Of a stretch of DNA of 64,000 nt, positions 37,704 through 50,269 are shown one piece after another. The position numbers and the translations under genes are program-made. The stretch's first letter is position 1. The number at the start of each line of letters is the position of its first letter. The notes under the pieces were generated by a model. That model ran no database searches. It worked only from the letters and a program-made list of their open reading frames with translations, and was not told where the DNA came from. This stretch comes from Thermotoga sp. (lineage in GTDB: Bacteria > Thermotogota > Thermotogae > Mesoaciditogales > Mesoaciditogaceae), in NCBI GenBank assembly GCA_020722015.1, contig DYLQ01000002.1, positions 16,697 through 80,696 of the forward strand, read 5' to 3'.

Positions 37704-38573
37704 TTGTCGAGAAAAATCTTTCCTTACCTTTTGCTTATCCCAACATTTTTAATAGTGGTTATCTTCATATATTATCCGGCTTTTCAGACGTTTAAACTCA
37801 GTTTTTACAAGATGTCTCCATTTGGAAATAGGTTGTTCTTCGTGGGACTTGGTAACTTTTGGTCTTTATTTACTTCGGGCCAATACGTTCAATCGGCATA
37901 TACAACTTTGATCTTCGTTACGGTTACAGTTGTCGCAGGCCTTACCATCTCTCTTTTTCTTGCGCTTCTTTTGAATCAAAGAGTTCCCGGAATAGGCATA
38001 TTCAGAACTTTGATCTTTGCTCCTTATGCGGTTTCTCCAGCTGTGGCAGGGACTTTGTGGGCTTTTCTTTTGAGCCCAGTTGCAGGATACGTAAGTTACT
38101 TGTTTTTAGTGCTTTTCAAATCGCAACCTCAATGGCTTACCTCATACCCTCTTGCCCTTATAGCTGTAATGATCGCAACGATATGGAAAAATCTTGGATT
38201 CAACATAATATTTTTTCTTGCAGGACTTCAATCGATCCCACAAAGCTACTATGAAGCAGCCACAATAGATGGGGCAAATGCATCAAGCAGATTGTTCAAA
38301 ATAACGATTCCTTTGCTTTCCCCCATAACTTTTTATCTGATCGTCATGAACGTAACCTTTACGGCCTTTTCTGCTTTTGCAACGATAGATGTCATGACTC
38401 AAGGAGGACCGGCCAACACCACATCCACTTTGATATACAAACTTTACCAAGATGGTTTTGTGAATTTCAATACGGGTTTTGCCTCGGCCGAATCCGTCAT
38501 TCTGATACTCATAATGACTGTATTCACTTATCTTTACTTCAAATTTGGCCAGAAAGCGGTGTTTTATCAATGA
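37704..38573 (+). CDS. ABC sugar transporter permease (MalF type)
   Basis: About 289 residues, six membrane helices. The EAA loop that contacts the ATPase is YYEAATIDGANASSRLFKIT. The FYKMSPFG start and PGIGIFRTLIFAPYAVSP are typical of UgpA/MalF-like permeases without the large MalF periplasmic insertion. The start is TTG 37704, six bases behind GAGGTG; the GTG at 37695 lies inside that ribosome site. Overlaps the second permease by four bases. Confidence 0.92.
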   Translation: MSRKIFPYLLLIPTFLIVVIFIYYPAFQTFKLSFYKMSPFGNRLFFVGLGNFWSLFTSGQYVQSAYTTLIFVTVTVVAGLTISLFLALLLNQRVPGIGIFRTLIFAPYAVSPAVAGTLWAFLLSPVAGYVSYLFLVLFKSQPQWLTSYPLALIAVMIATIWKNLGFNIIFFLAGLQSIPQSYYEAATIDGANASSRLFKITIPLLSPITFYLIVMNVTFTAFSAFATIDVMTQGGPANTTSTLIYKLYQDGFVNFNTGFASAESVILILIMTVFTYLYFKFGQKAVFYQ

Positions 38574-39409
38574 AAAAAAGTCAAAAGAAAATTCTCAAAA
38601 CGATTTTAATAGAAATAGCATTGATAGCAGTTTCCATCATCATTCTTCTTCCAATTTTTCTGGCTTTAACCATGAGCCTTAAGAGGCCATCCGAAGTGTT
38701 CGTTTACCCGCCCAAAATTTTCCCGGATTCATTTTACGTTCAAAATTACATAAGTGCTTTCAATTCCATAAATCTTGGAAGACTGATGTTGAACAGTTTG
38801 ATAATGAGTATAGCCATCATGGTAGGAAAAACGATCTTCGGAATATTTTCAGGTTATGCTTTCTCAAACTTCAAATTCAAAGGTTCATCTTTGCTTTTTG
38901 CCGCGCTGTTCGTAACGCTTTTCATGCCAGCAGAAATGATAATGATAGTTCCGCTGTTCCAAATAATGCAGAGTTTCCACTGGGTTAACACTTACTGGGC
39001 TTTAACCGTACCTTTTTTGGCAAGCGCAACCACAACTTTTTTGATGAGGCAACATTTCATGACCATTCCGAAAGAACTCGAGGATGCAGCTAAAATAGAT
39101 GGGGCAGGACCGATGAGATTTTTGTTTGAGATACTCGTTCCGCTTTCCAAATCGACGATAGGTGGCATTGCCATGATAAACTTCGTTTACGCATGGAATC
39201 TTTACCTCTGGCCATTGGTAGTCACAAACTCAAACAACATGGCGACGGCACAGATAGGTTTGAAGATGCTTACCAACGTTGAATCGACAAGCAATTGGGG
39301 AGTTATAATGGCAGGAACTTTGATGGTACTCGGACCGACTTTGATCCTTTTCTTCGCAGTGCAAAAGTTGTTCGTAAGAGGTATAATAACTACTGGATTG
39401 AAAGAGTAA
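38570..39409 (+). CDS. ABC sugar transporter permease (MalG type)
   Basis: A 279-residue permease with six helices. EAA loop: LEDAAKIDGAGPMRFLFEIL. The NYISAFNSINLGRLMLNSLI and FNFVYAWNLYLWPLV blocks match UgpE/MalG partners. No ATP-binding protein follows, so the transporter must use a shared ATPase (MsmX/MalK type) encoded elsewhere. The start ATG overlaps the MalF-type stop (ATGA). Confidence 0.93.
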   Translation: MKKSQKKILKTILIEIALIAVSIIILLPIFLALTMSLKRPSEVFVYPPKIFPDSFYVQNYISAFNSINLGRLMLNSLIMSIAIMVGKTIFGIFSGYAFSNFKFKGSSLLFAALFVTLFMPAEMIMIVPLFQIMQSFHWVNTYWALTVPFLASATTTFLMRQHFMTIPKELEDAAKIDGAGPMRFLFEILVPLSKSTIGGIAMINFVYAWNLYLWPLVVTNSNNMATAQIGLKMLTNVESTSNWGVIMAGTLMVLGPTLILFFAVQKLFVRGIITTGLKE

Positions 39410-39426
39410 AGGAGAGATAAGATCGA

Positions 39427-40155
39427 ATGGAGAAATTCAACGAAAAAACGCTTGCCAAATTCAACGGGAAAGATGAAAAATCAATTTACATTGCGTACAA
39501 AGGAAAAGTGTACGATGTGACGGAAAGTCGAATGTGGAAAACTGGAACCCACATGAATAGGCATTTTGCCGGAAAAGATCTGACGAATGAAATAGGTGCG
39601 GCACCTCACGGGGAGGAAGTTTTAAGCAAATTCAAAGTTGTAGGCATATTCGAGAGTACAGGTGAAAGCCAAGAAGCAGGTAAAGTGCCGGGTTGGCTTG
39701 GAAATATGCTCGAAAGGCATCCATCTTTGAAAAGGCATCCTCATCCCATCTTTGCACACTTTCCAATCGCTTTCATGATCGGATCAAGCCTTTTTGCCAT
39801 TTTATACGCTATCTTTGACGTTAAATCTTTCGAAGCAACGACTATCAATCTTGTAATCACCGGTCTTATCTTCAGTTTTTTTGCCATTCTGACCGGATTT
39901 CTGACATGGTACATCAATTACATGGCCAAACCGATAAGAGCCGTTAAGATAAAGATAGCTTTTTCTTTTATAATGGATGCAGATGCCATATTCTTGATTT
40001 TCTGGCACAGTATAGATCCGCAAATACTGTTGAATTTGAGAGATCTCCCATTCTCAAGTTTAACTTTTTTTGTTATGACTTTGTTCTTAGGGATTTTTGC
40101 CGTGATAATAGGTTATTATGGAGGTGAGTTAGTCTTTCCGGTGAAAAAATCTTAA
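39427..40155 (+). CDS. cytochrome b5-like heme-binding domain fused to DUF2231 membrane domain
   Basis: A 242-residue fusion. Residues 1-78 form a cytochrome b5-like domain (YIAYKGKVYDVTESRMWKTG, then His42/His46 and His61 in GAAPHGEEVL as axial-ligand candidates; the usual HPGG is altered). Residues ~95-240 form a four-helix DUF2231 domain beginning HPHPIFAHFPIAFMIGSSLF, whose histidines may bind a further heme. A membrane redox role is inferred. It may be cotranscribed with the transporter (17-base gap). Its stop overlaps that of convergent tatD by four bases. Confidence 0.8.
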   Translation: MEKFNEKTLAKFNGKDEKSIYIAYKGKVYDVTESRMWKTGTHMNRHFAGKDLTNEIGAAPHGEEVLSKFKVVGIFESTGESQEAGKVPGWLGNMLERHPSLKRHPHPIFAHFPIAFMIGSSLFAILYAIFDVKSFEATTINLVITGLIFSFFAILTGFLTWYINYMAKPIRAVKIKIAFSFIMDADAIFLIFWHSIDPQILLNLRDLPFSSLTFFVMTLFLGIFAVIIGYYGGELVFPVKKS

Positions 40156-40907
40156 TGGATTCCGAAAAATCTTTTCGCGTTATCCGAAGTTATCTTTTCA
40201 ATTTCATCAAAGGGAAGATTGAAGATCAAAGAAAGTGTTTCGATCGCGAACCTGACGTATTTGGGTTCATTTCTTTTCCCTCTGACAGGTTGAGGAGCAA
40301 GGTAAGGGCAATCTGTTTCCGTTAAAATTCTGTCGAGTGGCGCGAAAGACAGGATTTTTCTTAGATCATCGTTTTTCTTGTAAGTTGCCATGCCGCCAAC
40401 GCCTATGTAAAATCCAAGATCGAAAAATCTTTTTAAATCGTCCTTCTCTCCGTTAAAACTGTGAACTACGCCTACAAGGTTAAAATGCCTTATGATATCG
40501 TAGGCATCAAAATACGCATCCCTAACATGAAGAATCACCGATAAATGCCTTTGTTGGGCAATTTCAAGCTGATGTTCGAAGTACTCCCTTTGAAGGTTTC
40601 TGGGAGACAGATCTCTGTAATAATCAAGGCCTATCTCCCCAACCGCCATGACCTTTTTTTGATTCAAAAGTAACTCAATTTCTTCCTGCCACCCATTTTC
40701 AAGACTTACAACATCATGGGGATGTATCCCGACAGACGCATAAACTCTATCGTGCATTTTGGCAAAACTGACGGCCTTTTGGCTGGAATTCATATCAAAG
40801 CCGACTTCCACGATGAATTCTAATCCATCTTCTTCGAAATTCTCAACGATCCTTTCTCTGTCTTCATCAAAATCTTTCATCGAAAGATGAGAATGTGTAT
40901 CTATCAT
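40152..40907 (-). CDS. tatD: TatD-family metal-dependent deoxyribonuclease
   Basis: A 251-residue TIM-barrel hydrolase with all metal-site blocks: MIDTHSHLSMKDFDEDR (HxH), VGEIGLDYYRD (Glu), VILHVRDAYFDAYDI (His), VHSFNG (His) and TETDCPYLAPQPVRGKRNEP (Asp). TatD enzymes degrade DNA 3'-5' and are tied to DNA quality control. Length is typical. Overlaps the murC stop by four bases, so it is translated with murC. Confidence 0.93.
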   Translation of the reverse strand: MIDTHSHLSMKDFDEDRERIVENFEEDGLEFIVEVGFDMNSSQKAVSFAKMHDRVYASVGIHPHDVVSLENGWQEEIELLLNQKKVMAVGEIGLDYYRDLSPRNLQREYFEHQLEIAQQRHLSVILHVRDAYFDAYDIIRHFNLVGVVHSFNGEKDDLKRFFDLGFYIGVGGMATYKKNDDLRKILSFAPLDRILTETDCPYLAPQPVRGKRNEPKYVRFAIETLSLIFNLPFDEIEKITSDNAKRFFGIH

Positions 40908-42178
40908 TCCAATTCACCTGCAAATTCGTGTGCTTTGTAAGTTATGTTTCCTGCTCCCATGAATATATAAAGATCGGCCCACGTTTTTTTCAATGCTTCG
41001 ACAATTTCATCGAGCTTCACGAACTTTCCAACCTTACTCTTAGATTTTATATCATCTACAAGGATTTCCGATCCAACGTTGTTTTCTTCTTCAAACGCAC
41101 CAAAGATTTCCGTTACATATATCTCATCCGCAAAAGAGAGAGCATCAGCGAAAGATCTTTCAAATTTTGAAAATCTCGTGTACCTGTGCGGTTCAAAGAC
41201 GGCGATTATCCTTTTGAAGTAAGGCCTTACGGACATAAGGGCAGCTCTGACCTCGTCTGGAGTGTGAGCGTAATCATCGACAACGGTAATTTCTCCGGCG
41301 TGCAAGACTTCGAGCCTTCTTTTCAGACCAGGATAATTCACAAGCGCTTCTGCACATCTTCTAAGCGAGAAACCGGCTAAAATGCCTCCGGCAATCGCAG
41401 TCGTGGCATTTGCGATTTGATGAACTCCGACGATGTTAAGCACGACCGTTGCCTCGGAACTACCGTACTTTACCTTGAAAATTTGTTTTTTAAACCCATA
41501 TTCAACAGGCCAATACTCGATATCTCCACCTTTTCCGATCTTAAGAGAAGCGTTGAAGTCAAAATCAGATGGTACGATGGTATACTTAGCTTTATTTAAA
41601 AAATTCACAACCTTTTCAAATTGCAACTTTGGATCGTTTTGATACCTGTCAAGATGATCATATCTTAAGTTAGTCAGAATCCCAATCTCCGATTTCACAC
41701 CCTCCATCTTTGGATCGGATTCATCTACTTCAAAAACGAGACCATCTTTGCCAGGTCTAAATGTACTGCCCAACGAATCTATCGGCATGGCCCCGCATAT
41801 CATGGCCGTGTCCAACCCGTTTTTCATGGCTATCCATTGAGACATGAAAGTTGTAGAACTTTTCCCATCTGTACCTGTGACGCCCATGAATGGCGTTATT
41901 TTAGAGATCACGAAATCCATCCGTTCGGTGACGTTAAAACCCGATCTTTTGAAATCATCGACAGTTGCTTTAGGAACGGCAGAAGAGACGACGACGATGT
42001 CGGGATGATCGATAATTTCATTTTTGCCTATCTTGACGTCTATTCCGTAATCTCGAATGATTTTTATCATGGGACCGTCAGAAAGATCGCACCCCGTAAC
42101 GTCGTGACCATTGTATTTTGACCACATGGCAAGCGCACTCAACCCCATGCCACCGATTCCGACAAATTGTATTTTCAT
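40904..42178 (-). CDS. murC: UDP-N-acetylmuramate--L-alanine ligase
   Basis: Adds L-Ala to UDP-MurNAc, the first peptide step of peptidoglycan synthesis. About 424 residues. Motifs: N-terminal IQFVGIGGMGLSALA, ATP loop GVTGTDGKSSTT, VFEVDESDPKM, LTNLRYDHLDRY and VVDDYAHTPDEVRAAL (the MurC C-terminal block). The frame is open to 42235 but the ATG at 42178, behind GGAGG, gives the standard N-terminus. It lies apart from any other mur gene in this window. Confidence 0.92.
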   Translation of the reverse strand: MKIQFVGIGGMGLSALAMWSKYNGHDVTGCDLSDGPMIKIIRDYGIDVKIGKNEIIDHPDIVVVSSAVPKATVDDFKRSGFNVTERMDFVISKITPFMGVTGTDGKSSTTFMSQWIAMKNGLDTAMICGAMPIDSLGSTFRPGKDGLVFEVDESDPKMEGVKSEIGILTNLRYDHLDRYQNDPKLQFEKVVNFLNKAKYTIVPSDFDFNASLKIGKGGDIEYWPVEYGFKKQIFKVKYGSSEATVVLNIVGVHQIANATTAIAGGILAGFSLRRCAEALVNYPGLKRRLEVLHAGEITVVDDYAHTPDEVRAALMSVRPYFKRIIAVFEPHRYTRFSKFERSFADALSFADEIYVTEIFGAFEEENNVGSEILVDDIKSKSKVGKFVKLDEIVEALKKTWADLYIFMGAGNITYKAHEFAGELE

Positions 42179-42310
42179 AAATCCTCCATGGATTTTCAAG
42201 ATAATGTCATTTGACTTCAGCATATATGATAACACAAGGCGATATTCACAAAACTTTCAGCACATTTTGTTAAAACCGAATTTTCAACAATTGGTAACAT
42301 TACCTCTATT

Positions 42311-42339
42311 TTGAGATGATATACTTAAATTAAGATAAT
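42311..42339 (+). promoter_or_regulatory. promoter of the flavodiiron protein operon
   Basis: TTGAGA (42311-42316) and GATAAT (42334-42339) are separated by 17 bases. Transcription would start near 42346, about 32 bases before the ATG. The 199-base divergent region 42179-42377 also contains GTCATTTGACTTC (42205-42217), close to the near-palindrome found in the dispersed repeats. Confidence 0.65.
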
Positions 42340-42377
42340 AAAGTTTCATAAGTATAACTTTATGGAGGTGAAAGGTT

Positions 42378-43559
42378 ATGTCTGTTCAAAAAATCAAGGA
42401 AGATGTTTTTTCTTTAAGAGCCAATGACTGGAACAGAACGCTCTTTGATGAACTTATATTCCTACCCGATGGTACAAGTTATAACTCTTACCTTATTAAA
42501 GGAAAGGAGAAAGTTGTCCTTATCGATACCGTTGATCCGAGAAAAACCGAGGAACTGCTCAAAGATATAGAGAGTTTGAAACTGCAACGGATCGATTACA
42601 TAGTATCACAGCATTCCGAACAAGATCATTCGGGATCTATTCCGGAAGTGTTGAAGGCATATCCGATGGCTAAAGTTGTTACAAACAAAAAGGGGAAAGA
42701 ATTTTTAACGGATCTGGTTAAAATACCCGAAGACAAATTCTTAACCATCGAAGATCTGGGTACAATGGATCTTGGAGGAAAAACTCTGAAATTCATTTTT
42801 ACACCATGGGTCCATTGGCCTGAAACTTTTTCAACCTATCTGTTGGAAGACAAAATACTTTTCACGTGTGACTTCTTTGGATCTCACATAGCGACCAACG
42901 ATCTTTTTGCAACAGACGAAGGCAAAGTGATGGAAGCGGCAAAAAGGTATTACTCTGAAATAATGATCCCGTTCAGAACTTCCATAAGATCGAATCTTCA
43001 AAAGATAAAGGATATCGATTTTGACATCATAGCTCCATCTCATGGATGTGTTTATGAAAATAAAGAAATGATAATCAATGCGTACGCTGACTGGTCTTCG
43101 GATGATGTCAAAAATGTCGTCGTGATCCCCTACCTTTCCATGCATGGAAGTATTCAGAAATTCGTCGATCGTTTTGTAAGAAAGCTCCAAGAAATGGGAA
43201 TAGATGCAAGGCCTTTTGATGTTGTAACGGCAGATATAGGCAATATCGCAATGGCTCTGATAGATGCCGCTACGATAGTTGTTGCTTCTCCGACGATGCT
43301 CGCAGGTGTACACCCGAAGATAGCCTACATCGCCTATCTCGCGAATGTTTTAAGGCCAAAAGCAAAGTTTGCCTCTGTGATAGGTTCTTACGATTGGGGA
43401 GGGAAGGAAGTTGAGGTACTGGCCAGTTTACTTGGCAATTTAAAGGTTGAGATGATACCGCCAGTGCTTATCAAAGGAGATGGCACAGCGGAAGAATTGA
43501 AGGGAATAGACGATCTTGCAGAAAAAATTTCTGAAAAACACAAAACACTTAAACTCTAA
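42378..43559 (+). CDS. flavodiiron protein (A-type, O2/NO reductase)
   Basis: A 393-residue flavodiiron protein. The N-terminal metallo-beta-lactamase domain (about 1-250) carries the diiron ligands in His79-x-Glu81-x-Asp83-His84 (QHSEQDH), His in FTPWVHWPETFS, Asp in LFTCDFFGSH and His in IAPSHGCVY. The flavodoxin domain (about 255-393) has VIPYLSMHGSIQKF and ASPTMLAGVHPKI around FMN. Such enzymes reduce O2 to water or NO to N2O with electrons from rubredoxin, protecting anaerobes. GGAGGTG precedes the ATG. The following Nramp-like gene overlaps its 3' end. Confidence 0.94.
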   Translation: MSVQKIKEDVFSLRANDWNRTLFDELIFLPDGTSYNSYLIKGKEKVVLIDTVDPRKTEELLKDIESLKLQRIDYIVSQHSEQDHSGSIPEVLKAYPMAKVVTNKKGKEFLTDLVKIPEDKFLTIEDLGTMDLGGKTLKFIFTPWVHWPETFSTYLLEDKILFTCDFFGSHIATNDLFATDEGKVMEAAKRYYSEIMIPFRTSIRSNLQKIKDIDFDIIAPSHGCVYENKEMIINAYADWSSDDVKNVVVIPYLSMHGSIQKFVDRFVRKLQEMGIDARPFDVVTADIGNIAMALIDAATIVVASPTMLAGVHPKIAYIAYLANVLRPKAKFASVIGSYDWGGKEVEVLASLLGNLKVEMIPPVLIKGDGTAEELKGIDDLAEKISEKHKTLKL

Positions 43560-44763
43560 AATTCACAGTCTTCAAAAATTCATGCGCTTTTTTGGACCGG
43601 CATGGCTTACCATGATGGCCGATATGGATGCCGCAAGCACTATAAGCGCAGCCGAGGTGGGAGCAACTTTTAGATATGGTCTCATATGGTTTATGATGTT
43701 TCTTGCCATACCGCTGTTTTTTGTTCAGGAAGCTACCGGGCGGATTGGCGTTGTGGCACAAGATGGACTCGGTAATGTCATAAGAAAAAATTATTCCAAA
43801 AAAACGGCATTGTGGATGACAATACCTATGCTTCTTACAGATGTGATAACTTATGTAGCGGAATATGCCGGTATAGCAGTTGGATTTGAAATATTTGGAA
43901 TATCTCCTTTTATTTCGCTTCCGATCGTCTTTGTTCTTCATATATTACTTGTGACAAAAAGAAAATATGCGCAATTCGAAAAAATGCTAATTGCAATTTC
44001 CGGAATTCTAATGGCAACTTTTTTCATAACGCTTATATTCAGAGGAGTTAAACCTTATTCTCCCTTCTATTTTGTTCCATCCGGTTCTTTCTTTTTCATG
44101 CTTGCGGTAACCGTAGGAGCGGTTGTCATGCCATTCATGCTTTTCTTTCAAGCTTCCGCATCCGGTGAAAAGGTATCCTCTTTGCGCAATTATTTTGGCG
44201 AAGAAGGAGAGACATACTTGAAAAGGAAGGCCATTTCCTTTTCAAAGTGGGAAACTTTCGTAGGTGCAATAGTAACAGAAATATTGATGGTTGTAATTGA
44301 AATGGTCGCAACGGGAATAAATCCATCCGATAATTTGTTGTCTCCAAAAGATCTTTCAATGATACTTTCTTCAATAGCCGGCTCAATGTCTCCTTACATT
44401 TTCGGTATCGGATTAATTGCAGCGGGATTTCTTGCGCTCGTGGTCGTTTCTTTAGGAAGTGCGTGGGGATTTATCGAAGCAGCCGGTATCCCGAAAGACA
44501 AAACTTACATAGTATACATACTTGAAAGTTTACCTGCGGTTATATTTCCCATGATCTTCAGTTCATCGCTTGTAAATTTCATGCTTACGTTGATGGTTAT
44601 ATTCGTTTTCGTGCTGATAGGACCGGGAGTTATGGTAGGTATAATATCATCGAGTAAAAGAATAATGGGTGAATATGTCTCCAACAAAAAATGGAAAATA
44701 TTCTATTGGTCAAGTCTTGCATTTGTTTTGTTCTTTGGTTTTATAGCATTGACAAGTCTATGA
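43516..44763 (+). CDS. Nramp-like divalent cation transporter with non-canonical metal site
   Basis: A polytopic protein with about 11 helices, Nramp fold. In helix 1 the metal-binding DPGN of Nramp transporters is replaced by MADMDAAS, and in helix 6 the MPH motif reads VVMPFMLFFQ, so the His is Phe. Two acidic residues spaced DxD in helix 1 could form a different site; the cation (Mn, Fe, Mg or other) cannot be assigned. The longest frame starts at TTG 43516 inside the previous gene, behind AAGGGAA; the ATG at 43582 (MRFFGPAWLT) is an alternative without a ribosome site. The next gene, a DtxR/MntR-like repressor, overlaps its stop, so transporter and regulator form one unit. Confidence 0.8.
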   Translation: MQKKFLKNTKHLNSKIHSLQKFMRFFGPAWLTMMADMDAASTISAAEVGATFRYGLIWFMMFLAIPLFFVQEATGRIGVVAQDGLGNVIRKNYSKKTALWMTIPMLLTDVITYVAEYAGIAVGFEIFGISPFISLPIVFVLHILLVTKRKYAQFEKMLIAISGILMATFFITLIFRGVKPYSPFYFVPSGSFFFMLAVTVGAVVMPFMLFFQASASGEKVSSLRNYFGEEGETYLKRKAISFSKWETFVGAIVTEILMVVIEMVATGINPSDNLLSPKDLSMILSSIAGSMSPYIFGIGLIAAGFLALVVVSLGSAWGFIEAAGIPKDKTYIVYILESLPAVIFPMIFSSSLVNFMLTLMVIFVFVLIGPGVMVGIISSSKRIMGEYVSNKKWKIFYWSSLAFVLFFGFIALTSL

Positions 44764-45293
44764 TGGCAAAAATGGAAAGCATAAACGATCTAAGCAATGG
44801 TTTTCAAGATTATCTTTTGGATATATTTAAGATCGCCGGTGAAAAGAAAATTGTAAGGGCAAAAGATATATCCAAAAAAAGAAATGTAAAAATGCCAGCC
44901 GTAACCGTCATGTTAAAAAAAATGGAAGAAGCGGATTTGATCGTCCATGAGCGTTACGGTTATATCGAATTAACGGAAAAAGGAAAAATACTTGCAGATC
45001 AAATCGATAAAAGACATAAATTACTTTACGAATTTTTAAGAGATATCTTGAATCTACCCCAAGAAATAGCCGAAAAAGATGCTCACAAAATCGAACATGA
45101 TCTTGATGAAAGCACCATCAAACAGATTTCCGATTTAATGGAATTCGTAAACCTTATGGACAAGAGATTTCATACACGCAAATGTTTTTGTTTCTCATAT
45201 TTTTCAGAAAACAGAGATCTTCCCACTGAAGATGTCTGCAAAGCTCAATTGTGCGTCAGATTTCCGAAAGAATCAAAGTTTAACGAGAGGTGA
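44760..45293 (+). CDS. DtxR/MntR-family metal-dependent transcription regulator
   Basis: About 177 residues. Winged helix-turn-helix: IVRAKDISKKRNVKMPAVTV then MLKKMEEADLIVHERYGYIE; dimerisation/metal domain: LTEKGKILADQIDKRHKLLY and KDAHKIEHDLDESTIKQISD. Compared with Bacillus MntR, the ligand His77, Glu102 and His103 positions are kept, but Glu99 is His, and the Glu11 position is changed. The C-terminal ~35 residues hold five cysteines (RKCFCF, DVCKAQLC), not usual for MntR. ATG 44760 or 44763 overlaps the transporter stop, so it probably senses the cation carried by that protein. The frame extending to 44691 is spurious. Confidence 0.82.
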   Translation: MMAKMESINDLSNGFQDYLLDIFKIAGEKKIVRAKDISKKRNVKMPAVTVMLKKMEEADLIVHERYGYIELTEKGKILADQIDKRHKLLYEFLRDILNLPQEIAEKDAHKIEHDLDESTIKQISDLMEFVNLMDKRFHTRKCFCFSYFSENRDLPTEDVCKAQLCVRFPKESKFNER

Positions 45294-45298
45294 TTTAA

Positions 45299-46243
45299 AT
45301 GAGGATTGGGATAATAGGACTTGGTAGAATGGGAATGAACATGGCTCGGAGACTTTTGAAGAATGGCCATGAGGTCGTTGCATACAACAGAACTTTTGAA
45401 AAGACCAAAGAGATCGAAAAAGAAGGAGCAATCGGCATTTATAAATTAGAGGAATTGGCAAGCCATCTAAATGAACGCAGGATCGTTTGGACGATGCTTC
45501 CGGCAGGTGAACCTACCGATGAACACATCGAGATGCTTTCGAAAATTTTGTCAAAAGGAGATATCATAATAGACGGTAGCAATGGATTTTACAAAGACGA
45601 TGTAAGACGTGCAGAGTACCTTGGGAAAATGGGAATCGATTACATCGACGCTGGTGTTTCAGGTGGCATATGGGGATTAGAAGTTGGGTATTGTACCATG
45701 ATAGGCGGGAAATTAGAGAATTTCAAATACATCGAACCAATTTTAAAAGCGCTTGCTCCAGAAGAAGGGTACATGTATTGCGGTGAGACAGGAGCAGGCC
45801 ATTACACGAAGATGGTTCACAACGGTATAGAATATGCACTTATGGAAGCTTACGGAGAAGGGTTTGAAATTCTCAAATCCTCTCCTTACGGTTCAAAACT
45901 CGATCTCGGTATGGTAGCGCATATTTGGAATCATGGGAGTGTCGTCAGATCATGGCTTTTAGAACTTTTAGAGATGGCACTTAAAGATGATAAAGACCTT
46001 TCGTCTGTAAAAGGATATGTCGAAGATTCGGGTGAAGGTCGATGGACAGTCAAAGAAGCCATCGACCTCGGAGTTCCTGCAACTGCCATAGCCCATTCGT
46101 TATTCAAGAGATTTGAATCAAGACAAAACGATCTTTTCTCCGACAAGATCATAGCGGCATTGAGAAAAGAATTCGGTGGTCATAGGGTTTACAAGGAAGA
46201 TGGTGAAATTGACTCAACAGGGGAAAAAGATCTTAACATGTAA
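45299..46243 (+). CDS. gnd: 6-phosphogluconate dehydrogenase, short (decarboxylating) form
   Basis: Oxidises 6-phosphogluconate to ribulose 5-phosphate. The 314-residue length matches the short bacterial form, not the ~470-residue form of E. coli. Motifs: Rossmann [16 protein letters not shown] with YNRT (which may favour NADP), [31 protein letters not shown] and the catalytic [21 protein letters not shown] with Lys and Asn. Zwf follows directly, overlapping its end, so the pair makes the oxidative pentose phosphate branch. GAGGTG precedes the ATG. Confidence 0.93.
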
Positions 46244-47756
46244 AGACTTTTTCTGTACGGAATCCCATCCAAAATCCACCGGTATGGTGATCTTTGGCGC
46301 ATCAGGAGACTTAACACACAGAAAATTGATTCCATCTCTTTTCAATTTGTTTTTAAAAGATTTACTCCCCGACGACTTCTACATTGTTGGCATATCGCGC
46401 ACCAATTTCACCGACGATACGTTCAGAGAAAAAATAGTTGCCGAATTATCAAATGAAAACGACGTTGATAGCGATGAGAAACTTAGAGAGTTCTCAAAAA
46501 GATGCTTTTACCTTTCCGGAGATTATGAGTCACTTTCTCTGTATTCCGATCTCAAATGGAGAATTAAGGAACTCGACAAAGAATTTCATACAGATATGAA
46601 TAAGATATTCTACATGGCAGTTCCTCCGGATCTTTATACATCTATAATCGAGAATTTGGGTGATTTAGGTTTAACTTATGACGACGGTTCATCTTACTCA
46701 AGAGTTATCGTTGAAAAACCATTTGGATTTGATCTTGAGAGTGCTACGGAGCTCGATAGGAAACTGCATCTTGTTTTAAGAGAAGATCAGATTTACAGAA
46801 TAGATCATTATCTCGGAAAAGAAACGGTTCAGAACATATTGATCTTCAGATTTGCAAATTCTCTTTTCGAGCCGATATGGAATAATCACTACATAGACAA
46901 CGTTCAAATAACCGTCGCAGAAGAGCTTGGCGTTGAGCACAGAGCTGGATATTACGAACATGCCGGTGTCATAAGAGACATGTTTCAAAATCACATGATG
47001 CAACTTTTATCTCTTGTTGCGATGGAACCACCGGCATCGTTTGGGGCAAACGAAATTCACGATGAAAAGATCAAACTGTTCAGATCTGTAAGAAGATTTC
47101 CAAAAAATGCAAATGAATGGATAATTCGTGGACAGTACGGTGCAGGAAAAATCAACGGTAACGATGTCGTTGGGTATCGTAACGAAAACGGAGTAAGCCC
47201 AGAATCCAAAACGGAGACATTTGCGGCGGTAAAATTTTTAATAGACAATTGGAGATGGAACGGTGTTCCATTTTACATGAAATCTGGCAAAAGGCTTCAG
47301 AAGAGGGTAAGTGAGATAATTGTGGCGTTTAAACGTGTTCCACATTCCATCTTTCCGCAATTGTCCGTTGACGATATACCGGCGAATATTTTAAAGATAA
47401 ACATTCAACCCGAAGAGGGCATAGTGTTGACTTTTCAAGCCAAACATCCTGGACCCAAATTATGCATGAGTACACTCACGATGGATTTTGATTATGAAGA
47501 AGTTTTTGGTGATAAACCTCCGGATGCATACGAAAGATTGTTGTTAGATTGCATGCTTGGAGATCAAACGCTCTTTATAAGAGATGACGTTATGAAAGAG
47601 GCATGGTCTATCTTTACGCCTGTCCTTGAAAGTTGGGAAAATGCACCTGAAGAACAGGTAAATCGGGAATTGCATATCTATCCGTCTGGTAGTTGGGGTC
47701 CACCGGAAGCAGACGAATTGCTTAAAAAAGATGGAAGAGAATGGTACCAATTGTAG
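46200..47756 (+). CDS. zwf: glucose-6-phosphate dehydrogenase
   Basis: Oxidises glucose 6-phosphate to 6-phosphogluconolactone. About 518 residues. Motifs: nucleotide-binding [30 protein letters not shown] and the active-site [14 protein letters not shown]. Start is uncertain: GTG 46176, ATG 46200 (touching AAGGAAG) or TTG 46209 (nine bases from it) are all possible, and all lie inside gnd. No lactonase (pgl) gene follows. No clear terminator is seen after the stop; the next promoter lies 80 bases on. Confidence 0.94.
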
Positions 47757-47836
47757 TCTTCAAAATCAAACAATGCCATTGCGTCGTCCGTTTCTAAATC
47801 TTTTCATGTACTTTTATTTTGATGCAATTCGCGCTA

Positions 47837-47865
47837 TTGACAATTTATTTTTTTTATGGCATAAT
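47837..47865 (+). promoter_or_regulatory. promoter of the asparagine synthetase leader transcript
   Basis: Consensus TTGACA (47837-47842) and CATAAT (47860-47865) with a 17-base spacer, the best-looking promoter in the window. Transcription would start near 47872, giving a leader of about 175 bases before the structural gene. Confidence 0.78.
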
Positions 47866-47891
47866 ATTCTAAATTTTAGGGAAGTGATTAA

Positions 47892-47972
47892 ATGGTTACA
47901 TGCTTAACATGTATGACTTGTAAAATTAACAACAATAATAATAACTCAATCGACGTCGGTTGGTTGGGTTAG
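47892..47972 (+). CDS. asparagine-rich leader peptide (attenuator)
   Basis: A 26-codon open frame, ATG 47892 to TAG 47970-47972, behind a good ribosome site AGGGAAGTGA. Codons 13-18 (47928-47945) are AAC AAC AAT AAT AAT AAC, six asparagines in a row; the peptide reads MVTCLTCMTCKI, six Asn, then SIDVGWLG. The preceding part has a CxxCxxC pattern of unknown meaning. It lies between a promoter and a terminator just ahead of an asparagine synthetase gene, so the Asn run should act as the sensor in ribosome-mediated attenuation: scarce Asn-tRNA stalls the ribosome there. Too short for normal gene calling. Existence is inferred from sequence design, not from expression data. Confidence 0.88.
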   Translation: MVTCLTCMTCKINNNNNNSIDVGWLG

Positions 47973-48004
47973 TTTTTGATATAAGAAATCCCAAAAGGCC
48001 GATG
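47954..48004 (+). promoter_or_regulatory. predicted antiterminator hairpin
   Basis: Bases 47954-47968 (last codons of the leader peptide, CGTCGGTTGGTTGGG) can pair with 47990-48004 (CCCAAAAGGCCGATG): five pairs GGG/TT with CCC/AA, a two-base mismatch, then T-G, T-G, G-C, G-C, C-G, T-A, G-T and C-G, with a 21-base loop. This uses up most of the 5' arm of the terminator, so the two structures exclude each other. A ribosome stalled on the Asn codons leaves this segment free; a ribosome at the stop codon covers it. Drawn by hand; energies not computed. Confidence 0.72.
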
Positions 48005-48033
48005 AGAAAACTCATCGGCCTTTTAAAATTTTT
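47993..48033 (+). terminator. attenuator (Rho-independent terminator) before the asparagine synthetase gene
   Basis: AAAAGGCCGATGAG (47993-48006), loop AAAA, CTCATCGGCCTTTT (48011-48024), a 14-bp perfect stem followed by AAAATTTTT. It is placed between the leader peptide and the ribosome site AGGAGG (48034-48039) of the structural gene, and can only form if the antiterminator does not. Confidence 0.88.
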
Positions 48034-48046
48034 AGGAGGTGTTAAA

Positions 48047-48955
48047 ATGGTAAATGTTCAAGAAAGTCCCAAAGTTAAAAGAGAAGTGCTTGAGGTCTCA
48101 AGTGAGATCATGTCTGAAGCGGGACAATTTTTGAGAAGAAATGGATTCATCGAAATTTTACCAGTCATAATTTCCCCAATAACCGATCCTCTTAATCACA
48201 GCGTTCTTGATGCTTCGATCAATTACTACGACGGCCAGTACTCTTTAACCAAATCGATGATCTTTCACAAACAGCTTGCAGTCAGAGTTTTTCCAAAAAT
48301 CTTCACATTTTCCCCGAATATACGTCTTGAAACAGAAGACAAAAAATCAACAGGAAGACACCTAATAGAATTCACACAACTTGATCTTGAAGTCAAAGAT
48401 GCAAAAAGAGACGATATTTTAACTCTTGTAGAAAACTTGTTCGTAGAGGTCTTTAAAGATCTTGACAAAAAATTTGGTAAAATTATCAGATCGACGAACC
48501 CTCACTTTTCAATTCCGAAAATTCCTTTCGAACGTGTAAGATATCTTGAAGCTCTCGAAAAATACGGGAGCGATTTCGAGGCCATCCTTTCAAAACAGGC
48601 AACGGAACCATTCTGGCTTATAGACATACCAATAGAAGAGAGAGAATTTTATGACAGGTTAGACGGGGATGGAAAGGTCCTTGCAGATATGGATCTGATA
48701 TATCCATATGGATTTGGAGAGGCCATTTCCGGAGGAGAGAGGGAACACGAGTACGAAAAAATTCTTTACAGAATGAGTCTTAAAGGTAATGATCAAAAAT
48801 CTTTAAAATGGTACCTCGACGAGGTCAAAAAGGGAATACCGCCATCGGCAGGGTGCGGAATCGGTATCGAAAGGCTTACAAGATTTGTGTGCAATTTAAG
48901 GCATGTTTCTGAAGCGAGGTTATTCGCAAAAGTACCCGGAAGTTTATCAATATAA
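48047..48955 (+). CDS. archaeal-type asparagine synthetase related to AsnRS (ammonia-using)
   Basis: A 302-residue class II aaRS catalytic core with no N-terminal anticodon-binding domain. Motif 2 lies in FSPNIRLETEDKKSTGRHLIEF and motif 3 in GCGIGIERLTRFV; PHFSIPKIPFERVRYLEAL and DMDLIYPYGFGEAISGGERE match the AspRS/AsnRS family. Pyrococcus abyssi has a similar stand-alone core that makes asparagine from aspartate, ATP and ammonia, and this is the proposed activity. The Asn-codon leader in front supports it strongly. The alternative, a trimmed AsnRS, is less likely without the tRNA-binding domain. The ATG at 48047 lies behind AGGAGG; the frame open to 47960 runs through the terminator. Confidence 0.87.
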   Translation: MVNVQESPKVKREVLEVSSEIMSEAGQFLRRNGFIEILPVIISPITDPLNHSVLDASINYYDGQYSLTKSMIFHKQLAVRVFPKIFTFSPNIRLETEDKKSTGRHLIEFTQLDLEVKDAKRDDILTLVENLFVEVFKDLDKKFGKIIRSTNPHFSIPKIPFERVRYLEALEKYGSDFEAILSKQATEPFWLIDIPIEEREFYDRLDGDGKVLADMDLIYPYGFGEAISGGEREHEYEKILYRMSLKGNDQKSLKWYLDEVKKGIPPSAGCGIGIERLTRFVCNLRHVSEARLFAKVPGSLSI

Positions 48956-48978
48956 AAACAGCCCATTGGGCTGTTTTT
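48954..48978. terminator. bidirectional terminator between asparagine synthetase and rpmE
   Basis: AAAAACAGCCCA and TGGGCTGTTTTT form a 12-bp stem with a one-base-plus centre; both strands end in T-runs. It overlaps the stop codons region of both convergent genes and should end both transcripts. Confidence 0.9.
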
Positions 48979-49186
48979 ACTTTTTTGCGTTTGAATATCT
49001 TTTGTTAAATCTGTCCACTTGTCCTTCGATATCAACTATGTTTGACCTTTTACCCGTGAAAAACGGATGACATGCAGAACAGACTTCTAATGTTATCTTT
49101 TCCTTCGTTGATAACACTTTGTACTCAGCACCACATGCACATGTAGCCGTAACTTCGTGTAACTGTGGATGTATACCTTTTTTCAC
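48977..49186 (-). CDS. rpmE: 50S ribosomal protein L31 (zinc-binding type)
   Basis: A 69-residue L31. It keeps the zinc ligands of the C+ form: CAC in VTATCACGAEY and CSAC in LEVCSACHPFFTGK; IHPQLHEV and DRFNKRY are signature blocks. It starts with GTG at 49186 behind AGGAGG, 12 bases after the upstream gene, so it may share that transcript. The terminator stem overlaps its stop codon. Confidence 0.96.
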   Translation of the reverse strand: MKKGIHPQLHEVTATCACGAEYKVLSTKEKITLEVCSACHPFFTGKRSNIVDIEGQVDRFNKRYSNAKK

Positions 49187-49198
49187 TTTAAAAACCTC

Positions 49199-50269
49199 CT
49201 ATGAAGACTTCTCCTTTATTATAACATCTTTTTCTGGCGTAATCTTTACTCCTCTTAAAGATTCTAACAGAACAACGATGAATCCTATGATCAATGGTAT
49301 GAAATACCTCAAAATTCCCCACTCTATGGTGATCGTTGCAAGGTACCTGCCCGGTACTATGGATGAAAAGAAAAGATAAAATTCACCTTCGGCAGTTCCG
49401 CTTGATCCGGGTGTCGGAGAATAATATATTATAAGTGTGGCGAGTGCTTGAATTGCCAAGACATCGAAAAATTGCTGAATTCCATTGTTAAAAAGATTCA
49501 AAGATGCTATCGTTGGTAGCACAAGCAAAAGACTTGTTCCACTTGATACAATGGAAAGTACGAAAACAAGGATCAAAATGTAAGACTTATGGGTAAAATT
49601 CTTTGCACTTTCAGAATATTTTTCTATTTCGTCATCAAATTTTGCAAGTAACCATTCTGCCTTTGGCTCTATCTTTTTGCTGAACTTAAATATCGATATG
49701 AATTTTCTTATGACGTTAAAAAAAACGTCGTAAACCTTTCTGTTAAAGTTAAAAAGTATCATAATAGCTATTATTGAAGACGATATGATAAAACCGATCA
49801 AGGCAAGAGAAAGAGCGGAAGGGACGGCATTTAACAACACTATAGCACGTCCAAGTTCAAAAATCGCTATCATCTCTATCGCACCCTGCCAGGCTATGAA
49901 CTTGAAAACAAGCACAGAAGTTGATATGCCCGGTGAAACACCGACCTTATTCAAATAAACAACTTGCATAGGTTGGCCACCTGTTGATGAAGGTGTTATC
50001 ATCCCAAAGAAGTTGGATATTATAGTCGCTTTCAAGGATTGAAAAAAGCCTATTCGCGATTTTGAAATTCTAACAAGTATATAAGTGTTAAAAGCATCAG
50101 TTATCCATGAAACCAAAAGCAGCGCTACACCAATGAGGCCCCACCAACTTTTTAAAAAGAAAAAATAGAGATCGTTAAAATTTATACCTCCACCGAAATA
50201 ATTAAGCAAATATATCATAACGACGAAAACTATGCCTATGATTATTCCGTAGATGACAAACTTTCTCAA
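49199..50269 (-). CDS. YbhN/UPF0104-family membrane protein (flippase-like)
   Basis: A 356-residue membrane protein with about eight helices, of the lysylphosphatidylglycerol synthase transmembrane/YbhN family. Conserved blocks: FFGMITPSSTGGQPMQVVYL (near residue 95) and YSPTPGSSGTAEGEFYLFF (near 275). It lacks the cytoplasmic transferase domain of MprF, so only the membrane part is present. Family members are thought to handle lipids or sugar lipids; the role here is unknown. The TTG start at 50269 overlaps the stop of the nucleotidyltransferase gene, with GGTGATG upstream. Confidence 0.82.
   Translation of the reverse strand: MRKFVIYGIIIGIVFVVMIYLLNYFGGGINFNDLYFFFLKSWWGLIGVALLLVSWITDAFNTYILVRISKSRIGFFQSLKATIISNFFGMITPSSTGGQPMQVVYLNKVGVSPGISTSVLVFKFIAWQGAIEMIAIFELGRAIVLLNAVPSALSLALIGFIISSSIIAIMILFNFNRKVYDVFFNVIRKFISIFKFSKKIEPKAEWLLAKFDDEIEKYSESAKNFTHKSYILILVFVLSIVSSGTSLLLVLPTIASLNLFNNGIQQFFDVLAIQALATLIIYYSPTPGSSGTAEGEFYLFFSSIVPGRYLATITIEWGILRYFIPLIIGFIVVLLESLRGVKITPEKDVIIKEKSS

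Follow-up and report, generated by a model that had tools for sequence, protein, structure and literature searches.

The window (the whole 64,000-nucleotide stretch that was analysed) belongs to the genome of a thermophilic and acidophilic, Athalassotoga-like bacterium (Mesoaciditogaceae, Thermotogota). It contains three genes arranged head to tail on the + strand, which encode a flavodiiron protein (42378..43559), a transporter of Pfam family PF01566 (43516..44763) and a DtxR-family regulator (44763..45293). The flavodiiron protein is of the FprA type (metallo-beta-lactamase and flavodoxin domains; Pfam ODP, 98 bits). It has the diiron ligands (HxExDH, H, D and H) and the flavodoxin domain that mark the family, and its putative iron ligands are intact in the motifs HSEQDH, WVHWPE, TCDFFG and PSHGC. 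An earlier note on this DNA had placed an iron-requiring flavodiiron enzyme before the other two genes, and both the gene and the expected motifs are there. The transporter (415 amino acids, TTG start) is Nramp related and of the DAAS...AVVMPF type, and the regulator (176 amino acids, with Pfam matches) is of the feo type without a FeoA domain. The overlap noted previously between these two genes amounts to one base, with stop and start codons combined in TGATG, and the flavodiiron gene overlaps the transporter gene by 44 bases. Given these overlaps, the three genes are almost certainly carried on a single transcript. Genes for 6-phosphogluconate dehydrogenase and glucose-6-phosphate dehydrogenase follow the unit, as they do in the related locus L003; they are absent from this place in L005 and L006. 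Before the unit, a + strand gene (39427-40155) encodes a protein with a membrane domain after a cytochrome-b5-like one; the host is presumed to be an anaerobe.

All four Athalassotoga genomes (represented by the window, L003, L005 and a plasmid of A. saccharophila) share the order flavodiiron protein-transporter-regulator, with the flavodiiron gene first in each. This constancy upholds the view that transporter and regulator form one unit, and the pair does recur outside the window, although it is confined to Athalassotoga. In A. saccharophila the unit lies on the 43.5-kb plasmid pATS2 (L006 4830-7774), with an IS110 gene upstream and IS256 genes close by on either side; the transporter of this copy is WP_232060168.1. 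The chromosome of the same organism carries a second transporter copy (L004 6001-7254) that has neither flavodiiron gene nor regulator and whose neighbours are those of the full unit in L005. A plasmid copy among insertion sequences and a lone chromosomal copy suggest that the unit is probably mobile and that parts of it can be lost. Each of the five Athalassotoga copies has the transporter site described below, which is also present in two genomes from a different phylum, and so it is neither an error nor a chance change.

The metal site of the transporter was examined in an alignment that included EleNRMT, DraNramp and some 75 relatives. The TM1 site reads D36-M-D38-A-A-S41 (43621..43638, + strand) and the TM6 site reads A202-V-V-M205-P-F207 (44119..44136, + strand). 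D38 is predicted from the alignment to be the conserved metal-binding aspartate of TM1, and the motif in register with it, D38-A39-A40-S41, stands opposite DAGG of EleNRMT and DPGN of DraNramp. The replacement of DPGN by DMDA proposed in the earlier note therefore rested on a wrong register, while its replacement of MPH by MPF is seen in M205-P-F207, where phenylalanine takes the place of the TM6 histidine (DraNramp His232). S41 occupies the position of DraNramp Asn59, D36 that of Tyr54 and Met360 that of the TM10 residue Gln378. Ala202 and Met205 of TM6, the canonical selectivity residues of Nramp proteins, are retained, as is the glutamate of TM3 (E116). Among the four residues of the canonical core (DxxN...AxxM), the only change is from asparagine to serine. 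The site is thus altered, as had been claimed, through the changes of asparagine to serine and of histidine to phenylalanine, but Ala202 and Met205, which the earlier note did not report, are unchanged. As aligned, the predicted site is halfway between that of canonical Nramp proteins and that of Mg-type NRMT proteins, having kept the alanine and methionine and lost the asparagine and histidine. None of the papers found describes an assayed DAAS/MPF protein.

The transporter does not belong with the standard, proton-coupled MntH proteins. It matches the Pfam Nramp model (149.7 bits against a cut-off of 29.8) but falls far below the NCBIfam MntH cut-off (102.6 against 430 bits). Its best sequence match in the PDB is EleNRMT (2.5e-26), and its AlphaFold model (pLDDT 86) has EleNRMT and DraNramp as the top fold matches. 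Canonical Nramp/MntH proteins of clades A, B and C share with it the TM6 alanine and methionine, the TM1 aspartate and the TM3 glutamate, whereas it lacks the Pro-Gly-Asn that follows their aspartate (DAAS for DPGN) and their TM6 histidine (MPF for MPH). NRMT proteins (EleNRMT, 7qia; Clostridium NrmT) belong to the same Pfam family, likewise lack the TM6 histidine, and keep the TM1 aspartate and TM3 glutamate. However, the Mg-type NRMT site is DxxG...TxxA/T (PMC8806188) and usually has a CBS/MgtE-like neighbour, while the window protein has DxxS...AxxM, methionine for the TM10 glutamine and no such neighbour. The Pfam match, the LeuT-type fold, the absence of DPGN/MPH and a position outside the canonical clades place it in the Nramp-related outgroup of PF01566, in which other proteins, including B. 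subtilis YcsG/MntG, also lack DPGN/MPH. This outgroup is diverse and almost entirely uncharacterised (PMC12873925).

Trees drew on small phyla and on about 390 genomes from across the bacteria, a broad but sparse sample. Comparison with Nramp and NRMT proteins, which the earlier note had recommended, sets the window protein apart from both, in a DxxS...AxxM branch: the EleNRMT clade (99/97) excludes it, and a 100/100 branch splits it from canonical Nramps. The DAAS/MPF clade (100/100) holds the five Athalassotoga copies together with L173 (G446) and L174 (G443), from two genomes of another phylum, the L173 protein being 45% identical to the window transporter. These two members rule out a site unique to Athalassotoga. 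In a first tree without them, the group sat on a long branch and its placement was unsure, a clade with the DAGS group not being rejected (p 0.37). In a later tree, to which they were added and from which long-branched rows were removed, the DAAS/MPF clade joins a DAGS...AVIMPW clade with moderate support (86/87). One DAGS-type transporter lies in a 793-amino-acid frame with a long low-complexity extension (L100 4079-6460), which probably stems from a wrongly called start; the genome is GC-rich.

The regulator matches Fe_dep_repress (42.7 bits) and Fe_dep_repr_C (56.9 bits) in Pfam, and its predicted ligands are D16, H85, H108, E111 and H112. The earlier note described it as MntR-like, with some MntR ligands kept, histidine at the position of Bacillus MntR Glu99 and a changed Glu11 position. 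All three details agree with the alignment: D16, H85, E111 and H112 are conserved, and the positions of Glu11, Glu99 and Glu102 are occupied by L19, H108 and E111. Like MntR, the regulator has aspartate in place of DtxR Met10. The identification as a modified MntR was nevertheless rejected, since it has the site of the feo regulators and falls in their clade. The regulator shares the DtxR fold with Bacillus MntR but lacks Glu11 and Glu99, the carboxylates expected of a two-Mn site; its NCBIfam MntR score is 81.8 bits against a cut-off of 138, and MntR falls in a different clade.

The nearest relatives of the regulator outside Athalassotoga, 42-45% identical and found in two sister genera, are DtxR-FeoA proteins that head feoA-feoB; among the ten genomes of the family, a regulator-linked feoAB copy was found only in these two genera. 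In a survey of 390 genomes, seven non-Athalassotoga relatives with histidine at the DtxR Cys102/MntR Glu99 position were examined, and in every one the regulator gene stands immediately before feoA and/or feoB; no examined non-Athalassotoga relative has an Nramp neighbour. Relatives of the cysteine type often precede feoA/feoB too. In the regulator tree, 10 of 11 histidine rows, the window's included, form one 99/99 clade with feo-operon regulators, and leucine at the Glu11 position is common to several of the histidine-type relatives. The site is thus normal for its subfamily. With the feo-operon regulators the window protein shares the DAHKxEH ligand motif, the domains, the clade and a homologous tail; it differs from them in having no FeoA domain and in standing last in an Nramp-related operon, next to the transporter in all Athalassotoga copies of the unit, rather than heading feoAB. 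By its sequence, it is assigned to the feo-operon (ferrous iron) DtxR subfamily, and a search of the genome with it as query yielded no other DtxR-type protein. The C-terminus, said earlier to be an addition with five cysteines, has four (141, 143, 159 and 164), three of them conserved in other Athalassotoga copies, and aligns with the usual tail of feo-type regulators. An added cysteine domain was therefore rejected.

The neighbourhoods of related transporters differ between branches. A CBS/MgtE-like neighbour, a partner of NRMT known from Shin et al. (PMC4072509), occurs at 27 of 34 NRMT-type loci but in none of nine DxxS lineages. An iron-regulator neighbour is present in three of the nine DxxS lineages and, apart from weak GTPase matches, at no NRMT locus (Fisher test, post hoc, p about 0.007). 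One of the three lineages (G307, L078 1079-5893) has on one strand the string Fur, DAGS-type transporter, FeoB-N, FeoB-C and DtxR/FeoA, an apparent composite iron operon in which FeoB is split into two genes. In another, which includes G261, several species of a single genus have Fur directly upstream of the transporter, and the third is Athalassotoga with its feo-type regulator. An Mrp iron-sulfur carrier gene near the transporter in G306 and G448 is weak evidence.

The best reading is that the transporter is an importer of Fe(II), or of Fe and Mn, under an iron-type repressor, and we give a probability of about 0.55 to the three-gene unit being a self-regulated operon for Fe(II) supply and protection from oxygen. 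We infer the metal, the direction of regulation, the operator and the loss of proton coupling, starting from the observed gene order, conservation, motifs, clades and neighbourhoods. The DtxR-family repressor would sense Fe(II) and in its loaded form repress the operon, probably by binding a dyad, ATAAAGTT-N10-AACTTTAT (42338..42363), just upstream of the flavodiiron gene. The search for an operator upstream of 42378, another proposal of the earlier note, thus yielded a candidate. Its core, AAAGTT-N10-AACTTT, is conserved in L003, L005 and L006 besides the window, with diverged flanks in L005, and the exact core occurs elsewhere in the genome only once, inside a ribosomal-protein region. However, an 8-bp dyad arises by chance in about 6% of simulated regions, so that this one is no more than suggestive. 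Iron shortage would lead to more of the LeuT-fold importer and of the iron-dependent flavodiiron O2 reductase. The metal would be held between TM1 (D38 and S41), TM6 (the A202 carbonyl and M205) and TM3 (E116). Import would probably proceed without proton coupling because the TM6 histidine and other proton-path residues are absent; loss of this histidine together with retention of E116 points to uniport, the mode of EleNRMT and clade B Nramp (PMC8806188, PMC12873925).

In favour of iron, the seven examined regulator relatives outside Athalassotoga that have the same histidine all stand directly before feoA and/or feoB, the transporter keeps the TM6 alanine and the transition-metal-selecting methionine and groups with a DAGS...MPW clade that has Fur, FeoB and DtxR-FeoA neighbours, the CBS/MgtE-like partner is missing throughout the DxxS lineages, and the first gene of the unit encodes a diiron enzyme. 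A search of 38000-50000 for Rfam riboswitches, including the M-box, found none, which also fits iron. Against this, the genome already has FeoB, a canonical MntH and three Fur-family genes, so that there is a priori no need for a further iron importer. Two-thirds of the DxxS lineages have no iron-regulator neighbour, no iron genes were found at the loci of the two DAAS/MPF relatives outside Athalassotoga (L225 and L226), and the chromosomal transporter of A. saccharophila stands alone. A role as FeoB replacement in Athalassotoga lacking FeoB was discarded, since FeoB is present in 10 of 10 genomes of the family.

Manganese, for which the regulator would sense Mn(II) and the transporter import it in aid of oxidative-stress defence beside the flavodiiron enzyme, is a serious, though less likely, alternative. 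The aspartate at the DtxR Met10 position and the all-N/O ligand set would suit this metal, and a DAGS-type copy is carried on plasmids of Lactiplantibacillus plantarum, of a manganese-demanding genus. The Nramp-related YcsG/MntG of B. subtilis imports manganese, raises its level in the cell and is regulated by MntR (PMC10448178). In Porphyromonas gingivalis, the regulator MntR is a DtxR-FeoA protein for manganese that controls the manganese FeoB2 (PMC4805248), and linkage to feo is therefore no proof of iron. However, a canonical MntH (DPGN/MPH) next to a peroxiredoxin gene (L058 8651-10651, G000:C113) indicates that the standard manganese importer is kept elsewhere in the genome, leucine and histidine stand in place of Glu11 and Glu99, which contribute to the two-Mn site of MntR, and regulators with the site seen here lie on feo operons and not beside mntH. 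NRMT-like import of magnesium, or of divalent cations with loose selectivity, is improbable, even though EleNRMT is the best match in sequence and fold and the window protein has aspartate at Tyr54 and phenylalanine at His232, positions at which changes in DraNramp relax the exclusion of magnesium even with Met230 kept (PMC13060092). Yet Thr224 of EleNRMT, needed for magnesium (PMC8806188), corresponds to alanine and the methionine is retained, the locus has no M-box and no CBS/MgtE partner, and an iron-type regulator lies within the operon. The earlier note took parallel changes in transporter and regulator to mean a cation other than Mn or Fe. Zn, Co, Ni or Cu, also setting Mg aside, would be a very improbable substrate: the combination of DAAS/MPF with the TM10 change from glutamine to methionine is unmatched by any characterised member compared, but no neighbouring gene suggests any of these metals and the regulator belongs to the feo type. 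The argument finds support on neither side, as the regulator site is ordinary for its subfamily and the transporter keeps the methionine and has family neighbours that point to iron.

On the iron reading, the DxxS...AxxM branch as a whole (DAGS/MPW and DAAS/MPF) may, at somewhat less than even odds, be a distinct family of proton-uncoupled Fe(II) importers that act beside or instead of FeoB and are controlled by Fur or by a feo-type DtxR; in Athalassotoga the importer and an O2-reducing enzyme would travel together as a mobile module. The locus links one little-studied Nramp-related branch to an iron-type regulator, and its site is a natural test of which residues determine metal selection and proton coupling across the Nramp family, for which a cultured host, A. 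saccharophila, is at hand. In an unrelated bacterium (G464), a flavodiiron-like gene (L205 1-702) and a DAGS-type transporter gene on the opposite strand are about 3.6 kb apart.
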